A stretch of 64,000 nucleotides of DNA from Prochlorococcus sp. AG-418-I20 (GTDB lineage Bacteria; Cyanobacteriota; Cyanobacteriia; PCC-6307; Cyanobiaceae), in the NCBI GenBank assembly GCA_003214175.1, contig QCLZ01000006.1, positions 1-64,000 of the forward strand. Reading direction: 5' to 3'. The notes beneath the pieces are model-generated. The model was not told the DNA's origin. It saw nothing but the letters and a program-made list of their open reading frames with translations, and did not search any database. Positions 67 through 20,509 of this stretch are shown here, one piece after another. A program made the position numbers and the translations under genes. How positions within the stretch are numbered: the first letter of the stretch is position 1; the number at the start of each line of letters is the position of its first letter.

Positions 67-1857
67 TTGACACAAACTAACTCTAGTAAGCAATTCAATT
101 CATTAAAAAGACAACCAATAGTCTTACTTATCTTTTCGTCTATATCGTTTTTATTGATTTTAGTAAGGTTGATTTTTTTACAACTATTAAATTATGAATC
201 TTTTAAGCAAATGTCTGATGAGAACAGGATCAGGCTTATTGCTTCTCAACCAATACGAGGAAGAATACTTGATAAAAACGGTGTTGTCTTGGCAGATAGT
301 AGAGTCAAATATTCTTTAATAATAAAGCCTCAATCTGTAAGTAAGAGTAATTGGGAAAAGCATAAATTAAGGATTTCTGATTTGTTAAATATCGATAGTA
401 AAATAATTCAAAAAAAATATTTTGAAGGTTTAAAAAATCAGCAACTTTCAGTAACTATTATTGATGATTTAGATGTTGAGCAATTAATAAAATTTAAGGA
501 AAATGCAGATAATTTACTAAGTTTTGAAATAGCTACGAAATTAATTAGGAATTATCCATATAAATCTCTTGCTGCTCATGTAATTGGTTACACTCAGCCG
601 ATTACCAATTCAGAATATAAATTTTTAGCTAGTAAGGGTTATCAATTAAATGACTTAATAGGGAGAACTGGAATTGAATATGTTTATGAAGACTTCATCA
701 GGGGTGAATGGGGTGGAGAGATGGTTGAAGTAAATTCTTTAGGCAAATTTCAAAAATCATTGGGTACAAAACCTTCAATACAAGGAAATGATATTCAATT
801 AACAATTGATATAAATTTACAATTAGTTGCTGAGAAAGTTCTGAAAAATAAGAAAGCTGGAGCCATCATAGTGATGGATCCAAGAGATGGTGCAATAAGA
901 GCAATGGCAAGTAAGCCTACTTTTGATTTAAATTTTTTCTCTAAGGAATTTAAGCCTGAAAAAGAATATAACAAGATTTTTAATTCTCCTCAAAAACCTC
1001 TTTTTAATAGAGCATTAAATGCCTATGACCCAGGGAGTGTATGGAAGATTGTAACGGCTTTGGCTGGTTTAGAGAGTGGAAAATTTCCTATTGATACTAG
1101 CCTCGAAACCAAACCATGTATTACTTATGGTAGTCAATGTTTTAGAGAGCATAATGACTTAGGCTTTGGATTAATAGGTTATGAAGATGCTTTAAGAGTT
1201 TCTAGCAATACTTTCTTTTATCAAGTTGGATATGAAGTAGGCGTTGATGAAATTCATGAGGTTGCAAAAAAGCTTGGTTTTAATTCTTTATCTGGGATTG
1301 AAATTTCCGAACAAGAAAATATAGGTTTGGTGGCAAGTAGCCAGTGGGCTAAAGAAGGCAGAGGCTGGGGCGAGCCAGGAAAAACACCCTGGTTACCTGA
1401 AGATATTGCAAGTATGTCAATTGGGCAGATGGTTGTTCAAGTAACTCCTATACAAATAGCGAGAGCATATGCTGCCATAGCTAATGGAGGTTATTTAGTG
1501 ACTCCGCATTTAACTAAACAAGATGAAGGATATTTGTCTGATAAATCAAGAATTAAAATTGATATTGATCCTAAACATATCCAGCTAGTAAAAAATGGTT
1601 TAATAAAAGTTGTAGAATCTGGTACTGGCGCATCAATTAATACTGGAGTTACTAATCTGCCCCCAGTAGCAGGAAAAACTGGAACTGCTGAAGATTGGAA
1701 GACTGGATTAGATCATGCTTGGTTTGTTTGTTTCACTCCATCAGACAAAAGTGAATTATTAGTTGTTGCCTTTGCCCAAAATACTCCAGGCGGAGGTTCA
1801 GTTCATGCACTACCTATGGCAAAAGAAATTCTAAAAGTTTGGAATAAAAATAATTGA
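67..1857 (+). CDS. mrdA: Penicillin-binding protein 2 (peptidoglycan D,D-transpeptidase)
   Basis: Class B penicillin-binding protein that cross-links peptidoglycan in the periplasm, typically for cell elongation. It has one N-terminal membrane anchor (about residues 17-40), a dimerisation domain, then the transpeptidase domain. All three active-site motifs are visible: SVWK with catalytic Ser324 and Lys327, SSN at 379-381, and KTG at 537-539 followed by TAE. The length of 596 residues is normal for PBP2. The start is TTG; no better ATG keeps the anchor. The preceding 66 bases show no recognisable gene. The downstream gene is convergent, so this is probably a single transcription unit or the end of one that begins outside the window. 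Family assignment is confident; choosing PBP2 rather than PBP3/FtsI rests on overall domain arrangement. Confidence 0.93.
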   Translation: MTQTNSSKQFNSLKRQPIVLLIFSSISFLLILVRLIFLQLLNYESFKQMSDENRIRLIASQPIRGRILDKNGVVLADSRVKYSLIIKPQSVSKSNWEKHKLRISDLLNIDSKIIQKKYFEGLKNQQLSVTIIDDLDVEQLIKFKENADNLLSFEIATKLIRNYPYKSLAAHVIGYTQPITNSEYKFLASKGYQLNDLIGRTGIEYVYEDFIRGEWGGEMVEVNSLGKFQKSLGTKPSIQGNDIQLTIDINLQLVAEKVLKNKKAGAIIVMDPRDGAIRAMASKPTFDLNFFSKEFKPEKEYNKIFNSPQKPLFNRALNAYDPGSVWKIVTALAGLESGKFPIDTSLETKPCITYGSQCFREHNDLGFGLIGYEDALRVSSNTFFYQVGYEVGVDEIHEVAKKLGFNSLSGIEISEQENIGLVASSQWAKEGRGWGEPGKTPWLPEDIASMSIGQMVVQVTPIQIARAYAAIANGGYLVTPHLTKQDEGYLSDKSRIKIDIDPKHIQLVKNGLIKVVESGTGASINTGVTNLPPVAGKTGTAEDWKTGLDHAWFVCFTPSDKSELLVVAFAQNTPGGGSVHALPMAKEILKVWNKNN

Positions 1858-14597: not shown

Positions 14598-14650
14598 ATA
14601 ATTAATAATAATCTAATTACCTGTTTCTTTAGTACTAAAGAGTGGTTAGT

Positions 14651-15910
14651 ATGAATAAAATACCAAAAAGTTTGAGCCAGTTAGATTCCAATTGGTCGTT
14701 AGTGGATGACAGTAAGGTAACACCTAATGGGTTTCTTTTTGCTGGGATTTCTGCTGGATTAAAAGCTTCTAATAAAAAAGATTTAGCACTAATACTTGCT
14801 CCAGAAGGAAGTATTTTTAGTGGGATGTTTACCCAATCAATAGTTCGTGCTTCTTGTGTGGATATTTGTGAGGAAAGGATTAAAACAACTTCAGGTTTTG
14901 TACGAGCAATACTCATTAATTCTGGTCAAGCAAATGCATGTACAGGAACTCTTGGAATTCAACATTTTCAAATTGCTACAGGAAAGATTGCGGAACTTTT
15001 AGGAATAAAAGAAGAAGAAGTTTTAATGTGTTCAACTGGTGTAATTGGTGTTCCAATACAAATAAATGATTTAGTAAAAAATTTACCGAATTTAGTTAAT
15101 GATTTAAAGGGTAATAATTTTCAAAATGCAGCAGAAGCAATTTTAACTACCGATTTGACTTTGAAAAAAGTCTTAATAGAGACGATGATTCAAGGTAGAA
15201 AAATAAAAATAGCGGGATTTGCAAAAGGTTCAGGAATGATTTACCCCAACATGGCTACAATGCTTGCTTTTCTAACCTGCGATGCGGGGATTGAAAAAGA
15301 AGAATGGGACAAAATGATTGCAATTGCAGTTAAAAAATCTTTTAATGCAATATCAGTTGATGGAGAGACAAGTACAAATGATTCTTTTGTTGGAATAAAT
15401 GCAGGAGAGAAAATTGAAAAAAGGTTTTTCCCAATTATTCAAAAAGGGATTGATATTGTATGTCAAAACTTGGCAAAAAATATTGCAAGGGATGGAGAGG
15501 GAGCAAATTGTTTATTAGAAGTTTTGGTTCAAGGAGCAAAAAATACTGATGATGCAATTATGCTCGCGAAATCTATTTGTAATTCTGCTTTGGTAAAATC
15601 TGCGATACATGGTTGTGATCCGAATTGGGGACGAATCATTTCTGCTGCAGGCAATTCTGGAGTTAAATTTAATTTAAATGACGTTGATTTGTTTATAGAT
15701 AATGCTCAGATTTTGGAAAAAGGAAAGTTAAATAAATATGATCCAGAAAAAGTCAGAGACTATATTAAGTCCAGAATGAAAGGTAGATATTTAGTGGATG
15801 ATATTGTAAAAATTTTGATTAATATTAATTCTGGCAAATCGCAAGGCACAGCTTGGGGGTGCGATCTCTCTAAAAAGTATGTTGAAATAAATAGTGAGTA
15901 TACAACTTAA
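14651..15910 (+). CDS. argJ: Bifunctional ornithine acetyltransferase / N-acetylglutamate synthase
   Basis: Arginine biosynthesis enzyme that recycles the acetyl group from N-acetylornithine to glutamate. It is made as a precursor that cleaves itself before the Thr of the MATML motif, seen here in GSGMIYPNMATMLAFLTCD. Other signatures are CSTGVIGVPI and HGCDPNWGRIISAAGNSG. I chose the ATG at 14651 because AAAGAG sits 8 bp upstream; a GTG at 14642 would add three residues. The gene borders the accessory-looking block that starts about 20 bp after its stop codon. Confidence 0.95.
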   Translation: MNKIPKSLSQLDSNWSLVDDSKVTPNGFLFAGISAGLKASNKKDLALILAPEGSIFSGMFTQSIVRASCVDICEERIKTTSGFVRAILINSGQANACTGTLGIQHFQIATGKIAELLGIKEEEVLMCSTGVIGVPIQINDLVKNLPNLVNDLKGNNFQNAAEAILTTDLTLKKVLIETMIQGRKIKIAGFAKGSGMIYPNMATMLAFLTCDAGIEKEEWDKMIAIAVKKSFNAISVDGETSTNDSFVGINAGEKIEKRFFPIIQKGIDIVCQNLAKNIARDGEGANCLLEVLVQGAKNTDDAIMLAKSICNSALVKSAIHGCDPNWGRIISAAGNSGVKFNLNDVDLFIDNAQILEKGKLNKYDPEKVRDYIKSRMKGRYLVDDIVKILININSGKSQGTAWGCDLSKKYVEINSEYTT

Positions 15911-15930
15911 AGCAAATCCATTGTGCCGCA

Positions 15931-16030
15931 AGTGATCTCAGCGAATGGTTATACTTATAAAACGCTAATAAAACAGTGGTTTAGTTATACCAGTGCATTG
16001 CAGCGATTTTATTTAAAATAAAACACCTTA
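15931..16030. repeat. Degenerate AT-rich repeat, left copy, flanking the 16-18 kb block
   Basis: This non-coding stretch after argJ shares an ordered set of short motifs with 17771-17863. The shared pieces are ATCTCAGCGA (15935 here), CTAATAAAACAGTG (15965), TTTAGT followed by ATA, a second CAGCGA, then AAAATAAAACAC. The left copy also has an imperfect inverted repeat around the AATAAAAC core (arms AAACGCT and AGTGGTT). Identity is patchy, roughly three quarters over the best 40 bases by eye. The function is unknown: possible recombination site, iteron-like array or transcribed hairpin. Confidence 0.55.
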
Positions 16031-16101
16031 AAATTAGAAAAAATTTTAATTTTTTGCAATCTAATAACGAAATGTCATACTGAATTTAAATTTTTAAATC
16101 C

Positions 16102-16533
16102 TTGGCAAAAGATTTTCGCAATATTGAATATCATACAAATCAAGATGGAGATGGAGTTAGATATTATGCTTGCTCAACATTGAATCCCAAATGGAAAGAC
16201 TTGATATTTCACAAGAATAAAGGTGCTATTGTTCTAATCAAATGGGAATTCCATATAGGTAAGGATATTAAAAATCTTAGTGAAACTTTCAACTTCACTC
16301 CTGAATTTGGAAAGTTTGTTGAATATCAAAATTTATTTGATTACATAAATCAGATGTGTCGAAAAGAAAAAAATATGAATATGAAAATTGTTGATCTCCA
16401 AGTTTCTTGGCAGAAAGAATTTTTGTTCAAAATAAATCCTCTGACTCTAGAACTGGGACCCTTATGGATAAGTGACTTAGAACAAATTAAAAGGAACTTT
16501 AAGTGGGATAACAATGACTGGATAGAAGTTTAA
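16102..16533 (+). CDS. Hypothetical protein, accessory block
   Basis: Unrecognised 143-residue protein rich in Trp, Asn, Lys and aromatic residues, with no membrane segment, signal peptide or familiar motif. It reads as a soluble protein and ends in WDNNDWIEV. The start is TTG at 16102 with no close ATG, so the N-terminus is uncertain. It lies between the left repeat and a frameshifted small ORF that has a similar acidic and aromatic C-terminal character, so the two may once have been related or adjacent parts of one locus. No function is proposed. Confidence 0.55.
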   Translation: MAKDFRNIEYHTNQDGDGVRYYACSTLNPKWKDLIFHKNKGAIVLIKWEFHIGKDIKNLSETFNFTPEFGKFVEYQNLFDYINQMCRKEKNMNMKIVDLQVSWQKEFLFKINPLTLELGPLWISDLEQIKRNFKWDNNDWIEV

Positions 16534-16572
16534 TTTAAGTTTTTTTAAAAATTTATTCATTCAAAGGATGAA

Positions 16573-16775
16573 GTGTCATATTTAAATGTTGTTAATTACT
16601 TTAATGAAATTTTGAAAAAAAATATGCATCATTCATTAAAAATAATCATCAATGGGTAGATGATTATGATCAATATGAAGATGATATTAGACTTATAAAC
16701 GAAGCAAGATTTGCTTTATGGGATAATAATCCAGCACTTTTAAATGCAGAATATGAACTAGGTCCTTATGAATAA
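16573..16775 (+). pseudogene. Frameshifted small ORF (A8 homopolymer)
   Basis: Reading from GTG at 16573, the frame gives VSYLNVVNYFNEILKK and then, after a run of eight A (16615-16622), drifts to a stop within 11 codons. In the neighbouring frame, open reading resumes exactly across the run and continues through WVDDYDQYEDD to ELGPYE and a TAA at 16775. Restoring one A joins the two into a coherent acidic protein of about 67 residues. This suggests a one-base deletion (decay), a sequencing error in a homopolymer, or slippage during expression. The product is unrecognised. Confidence 0.5.
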
Positions 16776-16858
16776 TTTGGAAAAATTATTTATCTTCAAT
16801 AAACTTAATTTGCATTTCCTCCAGAGTTCGCTTATATAAGTTTCCCTAAAAAAATAAA

Positions 16859-17752
16859 ATGGAAAAAGAAAGTATTCCTGAACGAACAAAAGTAATTGGA
16901 GAGATATTGAGTACTAAATTTGAAGAAATAGAAAGTCGTGCTTTAGGTAATAGTGAATCTGGAATCCCAGTATCATTTTATGATTTTGATGCTTTAACTC
17001 AAGGTTTACCAAGGGGTGGATTGATTGTCTTGGGAGGAAGACCTGCAATGGGCAAGACATCATTGTCTTTGAATATGGCCTTGAATGTTTCTAAAACTCA
17101 GAATCTTCCAGTTTGCCTATTTCATTTGGAGATAAGTAAGGAACAGATATCCAATAGATTTTTATCAATGGAATTAGGAATAGAATCAGGCAGATTAAGA
17201 ACTGGCAGATTACAACTTGATGAATGGTCTTTATTGAGTGAAGGGATTGATTCTTTGAGCAAATTACCCTTACACATAACAGATCAACCGATAAGTTCAA
17301 TTCAAGAGATGCAATTAATCTGTCAAAAGATTAAGGAGGAGTCAGAAAAAAAGAGTTTAGGACTTGTAATCATTGATTATGTTCAATTACTCGATTATTT
17401 GCCTATTTCTGATGTATCAAATAGAGAAGAATATTTATTGAAATTAGTGAAGAGTCTTAAAAGAATGGCAAAGGAACTTAATGTCCCTGTAATTATTATT
17501 TCTCAACTTAGTAAGGATGTAGAGAAAAGAAGAAATAAGAGACCAATGTTAAGTGATATCAGAGACTTTGAACCTCTTGAGGTGTATTCAGATATTATTA
17601 CCATGATTTATAGAGATGAATATTACAATCCAGAAACTGAAGATAGAGGTATTGCTGAAATTATTACCTGTAAACATAGGAACGGACCAGTAGGAACAGT
17701 TAAATTATTATTTGAACCGCAATTTACTAGATATAGAAATCTTGCTGCTTAA
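16859..17752 (+). CDS. Stand-alone DnaB C-terminal-type RecA-fold ATPase
   Basis: A 297-residue protein equivalent to only the C-terminal helicase domain of the replicative helicase DnaB: a short N-terminal linker helix (about 5-30), then the RecA-like core. Walker A is GRPAMGKT (60-67), Walker B is in LVIIDYVQLLD, and the C-terminal segment HRNGPVGTVKLLFEP contains the expected arginine-finger region. The N-terminal collar domain needed for primase interaction and loading in true DnaB is absent, and the conserved RESGxIEQDAD loop is replaced by RDFEPLEVYSD. Phage and plasmid replication proteins often have such short forms, but an ATP-dependent role other than helicase is equally possible. 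It is bracketed by the two repeats. Confidence 0.85.
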   Translation: MEKESIPERTKVIGEILSTKFEEIESRALGNSESGIPVSFYDFDALTQGLPRGGLIVLGGRPAMGKTSLSLNMALNVSKTQNLPVCLFHLEISKEQISNRFLSMELGIESGRLRTGRLQLDEWSLLSEGIDSLSKLPLHITDQPISSIQEMQLICQKIKEESEKKSLGLVIIDYVQLLDYLPISDVSNREEYLLKLVKSLKRMAKELNVPVIIISQLSKDVEKRRNKRPMLSDIRDFEPLEVYSDIITMIYRDEYYNPETEDRGIAEIITCKHRNGPVGTVKLLFEPQFTRYRNLAA

Positions 17753-17770
17753 AATAGTCATTTTTTAACT

Positions 17771-17863
17771 ATTAATGAAGCACTAATAAAACAGTGCTTT
17801 AGTCATAGCAATACATCTCAGCGAGAAAAGTCAAAATAAAACACTAATAAAACACTAATCTAA
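17771..17863. repeat. Degenerate AT-rich repeat, right copy, with perfect palindrome and tandem 11-mers
   Basis: This right-hand counterpart of the 15931-16030 repeat carries a perfect inverted repeat, AAGCACT-AATAAAAC-AGTGCTT (17778-17799), then TTTAGT, ATCTCAGCGA and AAAATAAAACAC in the same order as the left copy. It ends with two tandem copies of ATAAAACACTA (17836-17857). The palindrome is not followed by a T-run, so it is not a typical terminator. The tandem units resemble iterons in spacing (11 bp), but no initiator gene is recognised. Confidence 0.6.
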
Positions 17864-17925
17864 TCCTTCAGAACCATTGGTATGACTAGCTTTTATCCCA
17901 TATGTTTTTATAAACTCGGAATATA

Positions 17926-18168
17926 CTACTTAAGTTTTAGTAAATCTATTGGCAGATATTCATTTATATAAAGAAATAGTATTGTTAAAGTTCCAATTAT
18001 AGAACCTATAAAACCTCCAATAAAGTTAAATAATAATCCAGATTTAGTTGTTGTAAGCTCTTCGCTTTTTTCGTTATCAAAATCTGTTTTATCTACTACT
18101 TTTAGGCGCTTATTGGTTGTTGGTTGTTGATCTTGTTGGTGTCGGATGAGGGCTTCGAAATCAGGCAT
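17926..18168 (-). CDS. Small single-pass membrane protein overlapping parA-like gene
   Basis: An 80-residue protein when started at the ATG encoding MPDFEALIRHQQDQQ (18168). It has a polar N-terminal half and one hydrophobic segment near the C-terminus (GLLFNFIGGFIGSIIGTLTILFLYI split over about residues 44-68), so it is probably an inner-membrane protein with a cytosolic N-terminus. Its first 67 bp overlap the 3' end of the parA-like gene in another frame, which implies translational coupling and a shared function. An upstream ATG at 18204 would extend it by 12 residues. It could be a membrane partner of the ATPase, but this is inference. Confidence 0.6.
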   Translation of the reverse strand: MPDFEALIRHQQDQQPTTNKRLKVVDKTDFDNEKSEELTTTKSGLLFNFIGGFIGSIIGTLTILFLYINEYLPIDLLKLK

Positions 18169-18773
18169 GGAATTTGTGAGGCAATAGAACAGTAAGCAGA
18201 CCATCCCGTCATTCGACGAGGATCTGATCTACCCAAATCGTCTACAGCATCTAATACAGCACAGCCCATTGCCTCTGCTTTATCGAAAGCTGATAGTAAG
18301 GGTATAAATGTATCAAATACATATAAACCAAAATTCTCTAGAGCTGCTTTTGCTTGTTGAGCTGCTTTTTGCTGTCTAAAATCAACTTTTACTATTACTA
18401 CTGCATGATTAACTTTTAAGTTACTTAATAATTTAGCTAGTTCAACAGTTAATTCTACGGATCTTGCTTTTGCAGTGGTAGGCAAGAGAACTAAATCTGA
18501 ACCATACGCTAAGTGTTTAAGCTCTTCTTGATCACTGCTAGCTTGTCCATCAGTTATTACTATTTCTGATGATCTTGATGCTTTAGCAGCTGAGCTAACA
18601 GGAAAAACTGGAAAAGGGAGATTGCCTCTTGATGAGTAAGCTAATGCAGATCTATTCTTGTCGGCATCCACTATACAAACTTTTTTACCTTCAGAATGCC
18701 AAACGTTAGCAAGGTGAATACTTGTGCAGGTTTTAGCTACACCTCCTTTTTGTCCGCAAACGGTAATGAACAA
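18102..18773 (-). CDS. ParA/MinD-family ATPase
   Basis: A 223-residue deviant-Walker ATPase. The N-terminal motif is KGGVAKT (residues 9-15) with both signature lysines, followed by the switch segment VDADKNRSALAY, and later VVIVKVDFRQQKAAQ. Such proteins position plasmids, chromosomes or protein complexes by forming ATP-dependent dimers on DNA or membrane. It lacks an N-terminal DNA-binding extension, so it belongs with short ParA/ParF/MinD or McdA-like orphans. The downstream overlapping gene is a small membrane protein rather than a recognisable ParB. The upstream neighbour (aldo/keto reductase) is divergent. Cargo is unknown: a plasmid relic or a chromosome-borne positioning system are both possible. 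Confidence 0.85.
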   Translation of the reverse strand: MFITVCGQKGGVAKTCTSIHLANVWHSEGKKVCIVDADKNRSALAYSSRGNLPFPVFPVSSAAKASRSSEIVITDGQASSDQEELKHLAYGSDLVLLPTTAKARSVELTVELAKLLSNLKVNHAVVIVKVDFRQQKAAQQAKAALENFGLYVFDTFIPLLSAFDKAEAMGCAVLDAVDDLGRSDPRRMTGWSAYCSIASQIPCLISKPSSDTNKINNQQPISA

Positions 18774-20028: not shown

Positions 20029-20180
20029 TTTATAAGATTGAAGTTTTTAATAAGATAAATCAATTCAAATCTAATCTTCTCAGTATTTATACTTATAAAA
20101 TTAAAAAAACTATTTTTAATACAAGCAACTGCAGCAATATTTACAAAATCAATAATTATCTACTACAACTTCTATGATTT

Positions 20181-20208
20181 TTAAAAAAGTGGAGTCCTTC
20201 CAGACTCC
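20181..20208 (-). terminator. Rho-independent terminator of ssrA
   Basis: On the minus strand, GGAGTC and GACTCC form a 6-bp GC-rich stem (20191-20196 with 20203-20208) around a 6-base loop, followed by a run of six T after ACT. It lies immediately downstream of the tmRNA coding piece, as expected for its transcript end. Confidence 0.8.
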
Positions 20209-20466
20209 TTGTATCATTTGGTTGATAAGGCTGATATGACCCCATCTCCTTTATGATCAAGCAGCAACTGGTGCTGTTTGACGGGAGAAACTAACGATTT
20301 TGTTAGCATTTGTGTTTTTGCTCTAACCGAGCCGGCTTCAGTCACCTTCCTTATGCCCCGTCGAAACCATTACAACCCCAAAAGTGGAGTTGAGCGGAAT
20401 CGAACCGCTGTCCGAAACATCGGTTGAGATCACCTAGTCCAATTGGACATTTATATTCTGACAGGC
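20209..20466 (-). ncRNA. ssrA: Transfer-messenger RNA, circularly permuted two-piece form
   Basis: The tmRNA rescues stalled ribosomes. On the minus strand the acceptor piece comes first, with the T-arm GCGGTTCGATTCCGC and 3' acceptor strand CAACTCC (ending at 20385-20386). After only about 5 nt (20380-20384) the coding piece begins at 20379 with GGGGTTGTAATGG, whose first seven bases pair with CAACTCC. The tag ORF at 20307-20257 encodes ANKIVSFSRQTAPVAA and TGA, typical of Prochlorococcus. A further long-range helix joins TCGGTTAGAG (20330-20321) and CTCAACCGA (20428-20420) with one bulged A. The order 3'-half before 5'-half is the permuted arrangement known in marine cyanobacteria. The outer 5' limit is approximate. 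Confidence 0.96.
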
Positions 20467-20509
20467 AAAATGAGTATTGAATAGTTTTTTTATTAAGTTT
20501 TTATCGTAT

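Follow-up and report, generated by a model that had tools for sequence, protein, structure and literature searches.

What occupies the approximately 2.8 kb between argJ and an aldo/keto reductase gene in Prochlorococcus sp. AG-418-I20, and is it a single unit? The interval lies in the window analysed here, a stretch of 64,000 nucleotides (GenBank assembly GCA_003214175.1, contig QCLZ01000006.1, positions 1 to 64,000 of the forward strand). A preliminary description made from the sequence, from which the name argJ is also taken, had treated positions 15931-18773 as one block holding an orphan gene and genes for a DnaB C-terminal-domain protein (DnaB-C), a ParA-like ATPase and an overlapping membrane protein. 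We conclude that the block is two unrelated things: a core pair of ParA and membrane protein, and an integrated element of 2.0 kb. The natural unit is 15890-17929, and the ParA and membrane protein genes lie outside it. In our reading, to which we give a probability of about 0.8, 15,890-17,929 is a small, non-autonomous element that is flanked by attachment (att) sites, has no integrase and resembles a cis-mobilizable element (CIME). It occupies a bacterial attachment site (attB) at the end of argJ and would be mobilised by a recombinase from elsewhere. The features of the region are as follows.

14642..15910, + strand: argJ, the host gene, with the integration target at its 3' end; only its last codons belong to the element
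15890..15906, + strand: left core (attL), AATAGTGAGTATACAAC; empty sites contain one core copy, filled sites more
15911..15978, + strand: left arm with one 11-bp-spaced repeat pair (TAAAACGCTAATAAAACAG), assigned from its sequence and from spacing statistics on relatives
15952..16026, + strand: 75-bp repeat, copy 1, longer than the usual left arm and continuing into sequence like that of a right arm
16102..16533, + strand: orphan protein of the MAKDFRNIEYHT family, 143 aa, TTG start
about 16608..16775, + strand: headless open stretch (gene remnant), from three-frame translation
16859..17752, + strand: accessory DnaB C-terminal-domain ATPase, 297 aa, without the N-terminal domain (PF03796, 2e-80)
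17770..17844, + strand: 75-bp repeat, copy 2, comprising the inner arm pair (ACTAATAAAACAGTG) and the start of the outer pair
17835..17858, + strand: outer arm pair, AATAAAACACTAATAAAACACTAA
17913..17929, + strand: right core (attR), AACTCGGAATATACTAC, overlapping the stop codon of the membrane-protein gene
17926..18204, - strand: membrane protein overlapping ParA, core, outside the element; likely start about 18168
18102..18773, - strand: ParA-like ATPase, core, outside the element, from profile matches

Using open reading frames (ORFs) and a profile search against Pfam, PHROGs and NCBIfam, we confirmed that all of the ORFs named earlier exist, and the aldo/keto reductase label agrees with a Pfam match to PF00248. 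The small ORF that had been called broken is present as an open stretch, which three-frame translation showed to be headless. The related repeats said to bracket the first part of the block were recovered as the two 75-bp copies, which are 76% identical; a 21-base pattern derived from them occurs twice in the window, with 0.01 occurrences expected.

Empty and filled sites at the argJ 3' end

We compared the best 80 of 193 ParA loci (79 titled Prochlorococcus and one Synechococcaceae), a named panel that was not selected for filled sites. argJ and ParA occur together in 75 of these loci, and the site between them is empty in 31 and filled in 44. Among the other five, four have less than 4 kb on the argJ side, and one (L269) has no argJ within 10 kb. 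It turned out that the interval is strain-variable and not syntenic everywhere, and the part with the orphan and DnaB-C is accessory, repeat-bracketed and satellite-like, as had been supposed. The filled loci include that of a laboratory culture, MIT 9314 (L311). Inserts in the filled loci exceed the empty length by 142-7042 bp (median 2231), and their cargo varies from strain to strain. Related secreted-looking proteins beginning like MKKLLALSLIGSSLL...KADWDYW are a frequent cargo, sometimes with several per array (L346, L124, L125, L126 and others).

In 38 of the 44 filled loci, a second copy of the approximately 17-bp core of the argJ end stands at a fixed distance from parA, and one or two extra internal cores are present in 20. 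Throughout the first locus set, which was chosen partly because its sites looked filled, the recognised cores between argJ and parA have a single orientation. One array (L151) contains five cores.

The last codons of argJ also differ between the two states. In all 31 empty loci the last two threonine codons and the stop codon read ACTACTTAA or ACTACTTGA (ACT ACT TAA/TGA). This ending was found in just two of the 44 filled loci; 19 forms occur among the latter, one of them non-synonymous. The ArgJ C-terminus is EINSEYTT in 31/31 empty and 42/44 filled loci, the remaining two having AINSEYTT and EINSEYMT, and the end NSEYTT is retained in 43/44 filled loci. Because the codon forms differ and NSEYTT is kept, we conclude that the final argJ codons come with the element, as is the case for integrative elements inserted at the ends of genes. 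Target-site duplication by a transposon was considered and rejected, since the left core has element-specific codons and is not an exact copy. In a single genome (G068, L187, 9466-10705), argJ is split into two overlapping frames, presumably owing to a mutation or an assembly error.

Insertion most likely proceeds as follows. A recombinase would recognise the core together with the arms beside it and join the att site of an excised circle to the argJ end. The left junction rebuilds argJ using the element's own, mostly synonymous codons. The displaced native argJ end would mark the right junction and would itself be a new target, and repeated insertion would give tandem arrays. The sequences themselves show the insertion site, the duplicated core, the restored gene, the arrays, the pairing of arms and the horizontal spread; excision, mobilisation in trans and the binding of a protein to the arms are inferred.

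The ParA gene is present in 128 of 151 genomes of the genus and in 49 of the 51 that are at least 90% complete, and the same aldo/keto reductase adjoins it in every ParA locus compared. At empty sites, where ParA is also present, argJ directly meets the membrane-protein gene, with overlapping stop codons. Orthologues of the membrane protein begin MPDFEALIR, which places its probable start near 18168. At the filled site of the window, the right core separates both of these genes from the element. Close orthologues of DnaB-C (88-99%, the window copy included) were found in at least 9 of 151 genomes, five of them in the argJ site. Since ParA is core and DnaB-C is rare, the DnaB-like and ParA-like genes form no special pair, contrary to what had been proposed.

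The same data bear on the suggestion that the orphan, DnaB-C, ParA and the membrane protein make up one degraded replicon, a plasmid or satellite relic. The DnaB and ParA ATPases do lie side by side, and two recombinase-bearing argJ elements have plasmid-like genes (resolvases and one ParB_N-domain protein). This explanation is nevertheless very improbable and is already contradicted by the core status of ParA and the membrane protein, which remain at empty sites, by the right core that divides them from the element, and by DnaB-C genes that lie near a second insertion site (see below) without an adjoining ParA.

Arm repeats at argJ and at a second site

The cores are accompanied by arms with short direct repeats. 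In 9 of 58 left arms and 18 of 53 right arms, a perfect 9-mer recurs precisely 11 bp further on, compared with 0.1 and 0.05 in letter-pair shuffles, and no such repeat was found in these arms at offsets of 8-10 or 12-19 bp. In the right arms an offset of 21 bp was also seen (8/53). The repeat sequences vary by element: AAAACACTAATAAAACAC, ATAACACCAATATAACAC, GTACCACC..GTACCAC, TGTGAT..., GCTTACA..., GTTCACA.... A 20-base repeat pattern was also tried as a genome-wide repeat and rejected; it matched in 82 of 151 genomes (two mismatches or fewer), and most of the matches listed are one unrelated conserved sequence, ATAATAAAAAATTGGTTTAG.

The two arms of an element are paired. We compared 81 elements of at least 300 bp from 55 loci (median size 1.66 kb; loci with an identical start omitted). 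The longest string common to both arms was 11.4 within the same element and 8.3 in mixed pairs (p=6e-20, with cross pairs that are not independent). Of the 44 elements typed at both ends, 42 have the same type, the types having been named by eye on the same data.

The attP site of phage lambda consists of a core and arms, and the arms contain direct repeats. The argJ sites are similar in having a core plus arms with direct repeats spaced by about one helical turn, and differ from lambda attP in that the arms vary in sequence from one element family to the next, with an unchanged core. These family-specific, 11-bp-spaced arms are putative binding sites of the N-terminal region of the recombinase or of a directionality factor. 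Unlike integron attC sites, the element ends have no notable single-strand fold: six of them gave z values of -1.37 to +1.62, no better than shuffles, in a plain energy test without an attC model.

The outer arm pair of the window (two mismatches or fewer) was found in 12 of 265 genomes, each time between argJ and parA; the copy in G033 is an AAACCAC variant. The other argJ-site DnaB-C elements have more degenerate arms, which the outer-pair pattern misses. The window-type pair also bounds a one-gene mini-element in G073, G232 and G162, whose gene is presumably DUF805-like, and a gene-less element of 142 bp in G199. The left repeat of the window, running into right-arm-like sequence, is probably a scar of recombination between arms.

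The same layout is seen at the 3' end of a second gene, which we take to be guaA, with the core ACTATTGAGTGGGAATAA. This hotspot was seen in L357, L358, L360, L354 and L355 (genomes G039, G025, G096 and G000), and the first three contain five or six guaA cores in a row (three mismatches or fewer). Repeats at 11 bp are present in 11 of 31 left and 13 of 31 right guaA arms, compared with 0.0 and 0.04 in shuffles; this count covers 11 of 15 guaA loci, mostly ones with several cores. Among the matches listed, the genome of the window has guaA-type cores on contigs C7 and C16. DnaB-C is present in the guaA region of G119, G014 and G050. In G096, a gene at the guaA end (454 aa) encodes a distant relative of the argJ-site recombinases described below, with about 21% identity. 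In G039, inspection by eye showed a tRNA-like stretch with repeats at 11 bp close to DnaB-C; a tRNA gene beside DnaB-C was rejected, as ARAGORN finds none in this locus (L095).

The gene block beyond the guaA site in L099 includes a protein like that of the first gene of the window (67-1857), which we take to be a penicillin-binding protein. Because of this relative, the guaA site should lie just off the left edge of the window.

Where the recombinase may come from

The intact ORFs of the window element, the orphan and DnaB-C, have no recombinase or relaxase match in Pfam, PHROGs or NCBIfam. Tyrosine recombinases were found at the argJ site in three genomes (G068, G173 and G047). They are 457, 468 and 527 aa long, their genes start less than 200 bp from the end core, and all three keep a WYSFRH...YYHH region. 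The recombinase of G047 passes the Pfam PF00589 cut-off. The G173 element also carries a serine recombinase-type protein and a ParB_N-methylase protein, and the G068 element a resolvase. No conjugation family was recognised by Pfam among the nine proteins of two recombinase-bearing elements. The arm type of G173, TGTGATTTGTG, is seen again in L144 and L114, in elements without a recognised recombinase. Recombinase-less elements would move via a matching recombinase in trans, whose source would be an autonomous relative or, conceivably, the host. Alternatively, they would move in cis with a neighbour.

Relatives of the argJ-site recombinases are also encoded 12-16 kb away from parA in the direction of argJ (G054:C1:75313, G081:C3:42714, G145:C10:5772 and G110:C8:31427). 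They are frames of about 500 aa, short in G110, and those of G054 and G110 lie between argJ and a guaA core. They perhaps mark a third hotspot.

Several results weigh against a non-autonomous element that is moved from elsewhere. The right core was not recognised in 6 of the 44 filled named loci. Among the 81 elements compared, 27 could be typed at one end and 10 at neither, and two of the 44 typed at both ends are mismatched. Recombinases are scarce: using as queries 48 sequences from tyrosine-recombinase matches (argJ and guaA ones included) and two serine recombinases, we recognised one in 2/44 filled named loci and 1/36 filled intervals of the first set, namely those of G068, G173 and G047. 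The recombinases of G068 and G173 fall below the PF00589 cut-off, and one of the two exceeds the threshold for a SAM-like integrase domain. The argJ-recombinase family was found in 14 of 266 genus genomes, with three members verified at argJ, several elsewhere and four unplaced (G211, G172, G088 and G031). None was found in any element with the arm type of the window, and no circular or excised form was seen. In viral contigs there were no relatives of the G173 recombinase, and the argJ core gave one match, judged unrelated by eye. Many of the elements may be relics.

The genome of the window also has a PF00589 protein of its own, the only one among the matches listed, in a 393-aa frame; proteins of this kind are widespread in the genus. 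Therefore, the recombinase could be supplied by something other than an autonomous element, and our confidence given above was lowered slightly because a host recombinase may play this part. Elements that exploit Xer use the recombinase of the host, and PF00589 matches occur in at least 135 of 151 genus genomes, many of them with 389-aa frames. That the elements depend on this widespread chromosomal tyrosine recombinase (frames of about 389-393 aa) is still quite unlikely, as the arm types differ among element families, as if read by different proteins, and three argJ-site elements bring their own recombinase.

A CIME is an element without integration and transfer genes that has kept attL and attR (PMC5704250). 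In streptococci, integrative and conjugative elements (ICEs), integrative and mobilizable elements (IMEs) and CIMEs form arrays by site-specific accretion. The argJ elements agree with this definition and with the accretion model, and share with CIMEs the flanking att sites, the tandem arrangement at the 3' end of a conserved gene and recombinase-bearing relatives at the same site. The window element has attL at 15890 and attR at 17913, with the intact ORFs free of recombinase and relaxase matches; it is a single element, and tandem accretion is seen as internal cores in other loci (20/44). The argJ elements differ from such CIMEs in their small size (median 1.66 kb), in having several arm-repeat types and in a site filled in 44/75 loci. 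They could descend by decay from an ICE or an IME.

Tycheposons, as far as a citing paper describes them (PMC10872708), are elements of 4-200 kb at tRNA genes. The argJ elements are similar in occurring in Prochlorococcus, with tyrosine recombinases, flexible cargo and recurrent chromosomal sites. In contrast to that description, insertion is at the 3' ends of argJ and guaA and not at a tRNA gene, the window element is without a tyrosine recombinase, and most argJ inserts have no recognised recombinase. By its site, the argJ element is not a tycheposon as that paper describes them. Among the titles and abstract openings listed in literature searches, which did not include the primary tycheposon paper, none describes an argJ/guaA insertion system. 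An integrase-less array of integron cassettes (a cluster of attC sites lacking integron-integrases, CALIN) receives its enzyme from elsewhere (PMC11389934). The likeness to CALIN is in logic only: small tandem cassettes, one site orientation and an enzyme from elsewhere. Unlike CALIN, the argJ elements have two-armed att sites with 11-bp direct repeats and genes on both strands.

We tentatively propose a more general scheme of cassette exchange in Prochlorococcus, which we consider possible rather than probable. Integrase-less cassettes with interchangeable arm "codes" would insert one after another at the 3' ends of several housekeeping genes (argJ, guaA and perhaps tRNA genes) and would be moved in trans by scarce and diverse recombinases that share the code; DnaB-C would be a mobile, repurposed ATPase that has lost its helicase work. 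The streamlined genomes of Prochlorococcus still exchange flexible genes. A defined attB that is filled in 44/75 loci, together with the arrays, the arm types and a few relatives that carry recombinases, offers a concrete and testable mechanism by which genes could turn over on a small scale away from tRNA-linked islands. A rule for annotation follows as well: search for the argJ- or guaA-end core together with 11-bp arm repeats.

The DnaB-derived ATPase and the orphan protein

The cargo of the window element consists of the orphan and a DnaB-derived ATPase that lacks the N-terminal domain and has a changed H4 motif. DnaB-C is 62% identical over the C-domain to the full DnaB of its own host genome. 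Its match to the NCBIfam DnaB model begins at position 148 of the 435-position profile and falls short of the cut-off, and the N-terminal domain is absent in all 19 accessory DnaB-C proteins compared. These were part of a 54-protein alignment that omitted loci L001, L003 and L033, copies of the window. We built a tree of 32 of these proteins; 10 viral-contig rows were left out, as were 12 of the 17 host DnaB proteins, which are nearly identical. The 19 accessory proteins fall on one side of a branch with support of 100/99, next to the host DnaB of Prochlorococcus and one viral-contig DnaB. Among the matches listed, frames of DnaB-C length occur in several related genera of the order. A further argJ-site copy of DnaB-C, in AG-455-E15 (L284), lies beside a different arm type.

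Of the 19 accessory proteins, all have Walker A and Walker B, and 17, that of the window included, have the K.RNG arginine-finger region, which is lost in L095 and L110. The SG.IEQ(D/E)AD part of the H4 motif is found in 0/19 of them, compared with 35/35 other DnaB rows. In the window, H4 reads RDFEPLEVYSD instead of RESGSIEQDAD. In DnaB structures, H4 contacts single-stranded DNA. The ratio of non-synonymous to synonymous substitution rates (dN/dS) of DnaB-C is 0.06-0.15 in twelve pairs. Judged from its sequence, DnaB-C is a conserved DnaB-derived ATPase with an altered H4, under purifying selection, and this H4-altered family is a clear target for biochemistry.

The window and G025 differ in DnaB-C by a dS of 0.039, compared with 1.14 in argJ and 1.38 in parA, where values above 1 are near saturation. 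Because the dS of DnaB-C is far below that of both flanking genes, DnaB-C moved recently between distant lineages. This bears on another explanation, in which the arrays are immobile now, homologous recombination between strains swaps parts of the argJ-parA interval, and the cores and arms are fossils. The scarcity of recombinases would fit it, flanking homology eases allele replacement, and mini-elements such as that of 142 bp in G199 resemble deletions between arm repeats. We consider it rather unlikely. Arm pairing within elements is maintained, and DnaB-C occurs both at argJ and in the guaA region. Moreover, since the DnaB-C genes of the window and G025 are far more alike than both flanks, an exchange of this kind must have ended inside the interval.

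What DnaB-C does may be considered in three ways. It resembles a DnaB helicase in its RecA-type ATPase domain and, in the window, in Walker A, Walker B and the arginine-finger region, and it differs in the missing N-terminal domain, the altered H4 of all 19 proteins and the separate clade. Work as a replicative helicase in an episomal phase of the element would agree with the retained motifs and the low dN/dS; it is unlikely, given the loss of the N-terminal domain and of an H4 part that all 35 other rows keep, and no initiator was recognised in the window element by Pfam, PHROGs or NCBIfam. We favour instead, though with limited credence, a regulatory or interfering ATPase that modulates the replication of phage or host. 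An anti-phage or immunity ATPase, for example a dominant-negative partner of DnaB-type helicases, is likewise a doubtful assignment. DnaB-C belongs to the variable cargo, has an altered H4 and branches beside the Prochlorococcus host DnaB, with which co-assembly is conceivable. Against this role, close orthologues are carried by few genomes (9 of 151 among the matches listed).

A viral source of DnaB-C was considered and set aside: the best viral-contig matches (L209-L212) have a canonical H4 where it is covered, lie on G+C-richer contigs and look host-type. In 1350 phage records, all DnaB-C matches are below 60% identity.

The orphan has no family assignment above cut-off in Pfam, PHROGs or NCBIfam and was not found in viral contigs. 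Its dN/dS is 0.24-0.37 against five relatives. Of the 13 loci that carry DnaB-C away from the argJ site, six (L095, L105-L108 and L111) also have the orphan nearby. A predicted structure of the orphan was discarded (mean confidence score, pLDDT, 36). The DnaB-C loci outside argJ also hold small sigma70-region-4-like proteins, below the Pfam cut-off, and TPR proteins, and both kinds accompany the orphan and DnaB-C in several of the six loci. In L105 (9626-9886), an 86-aa stretch like the C-terminus of a phage integrase (E 0.027, below cut-off) lies beside the orphan, TPR and DnaB-C genes. Just past the aldo/keto reductase of the window, ARAGORN finds a transfer-messenger RNA (tmRNA) gene at 20166-20474 with the tag ANKIVSFSRQTAPVAA.

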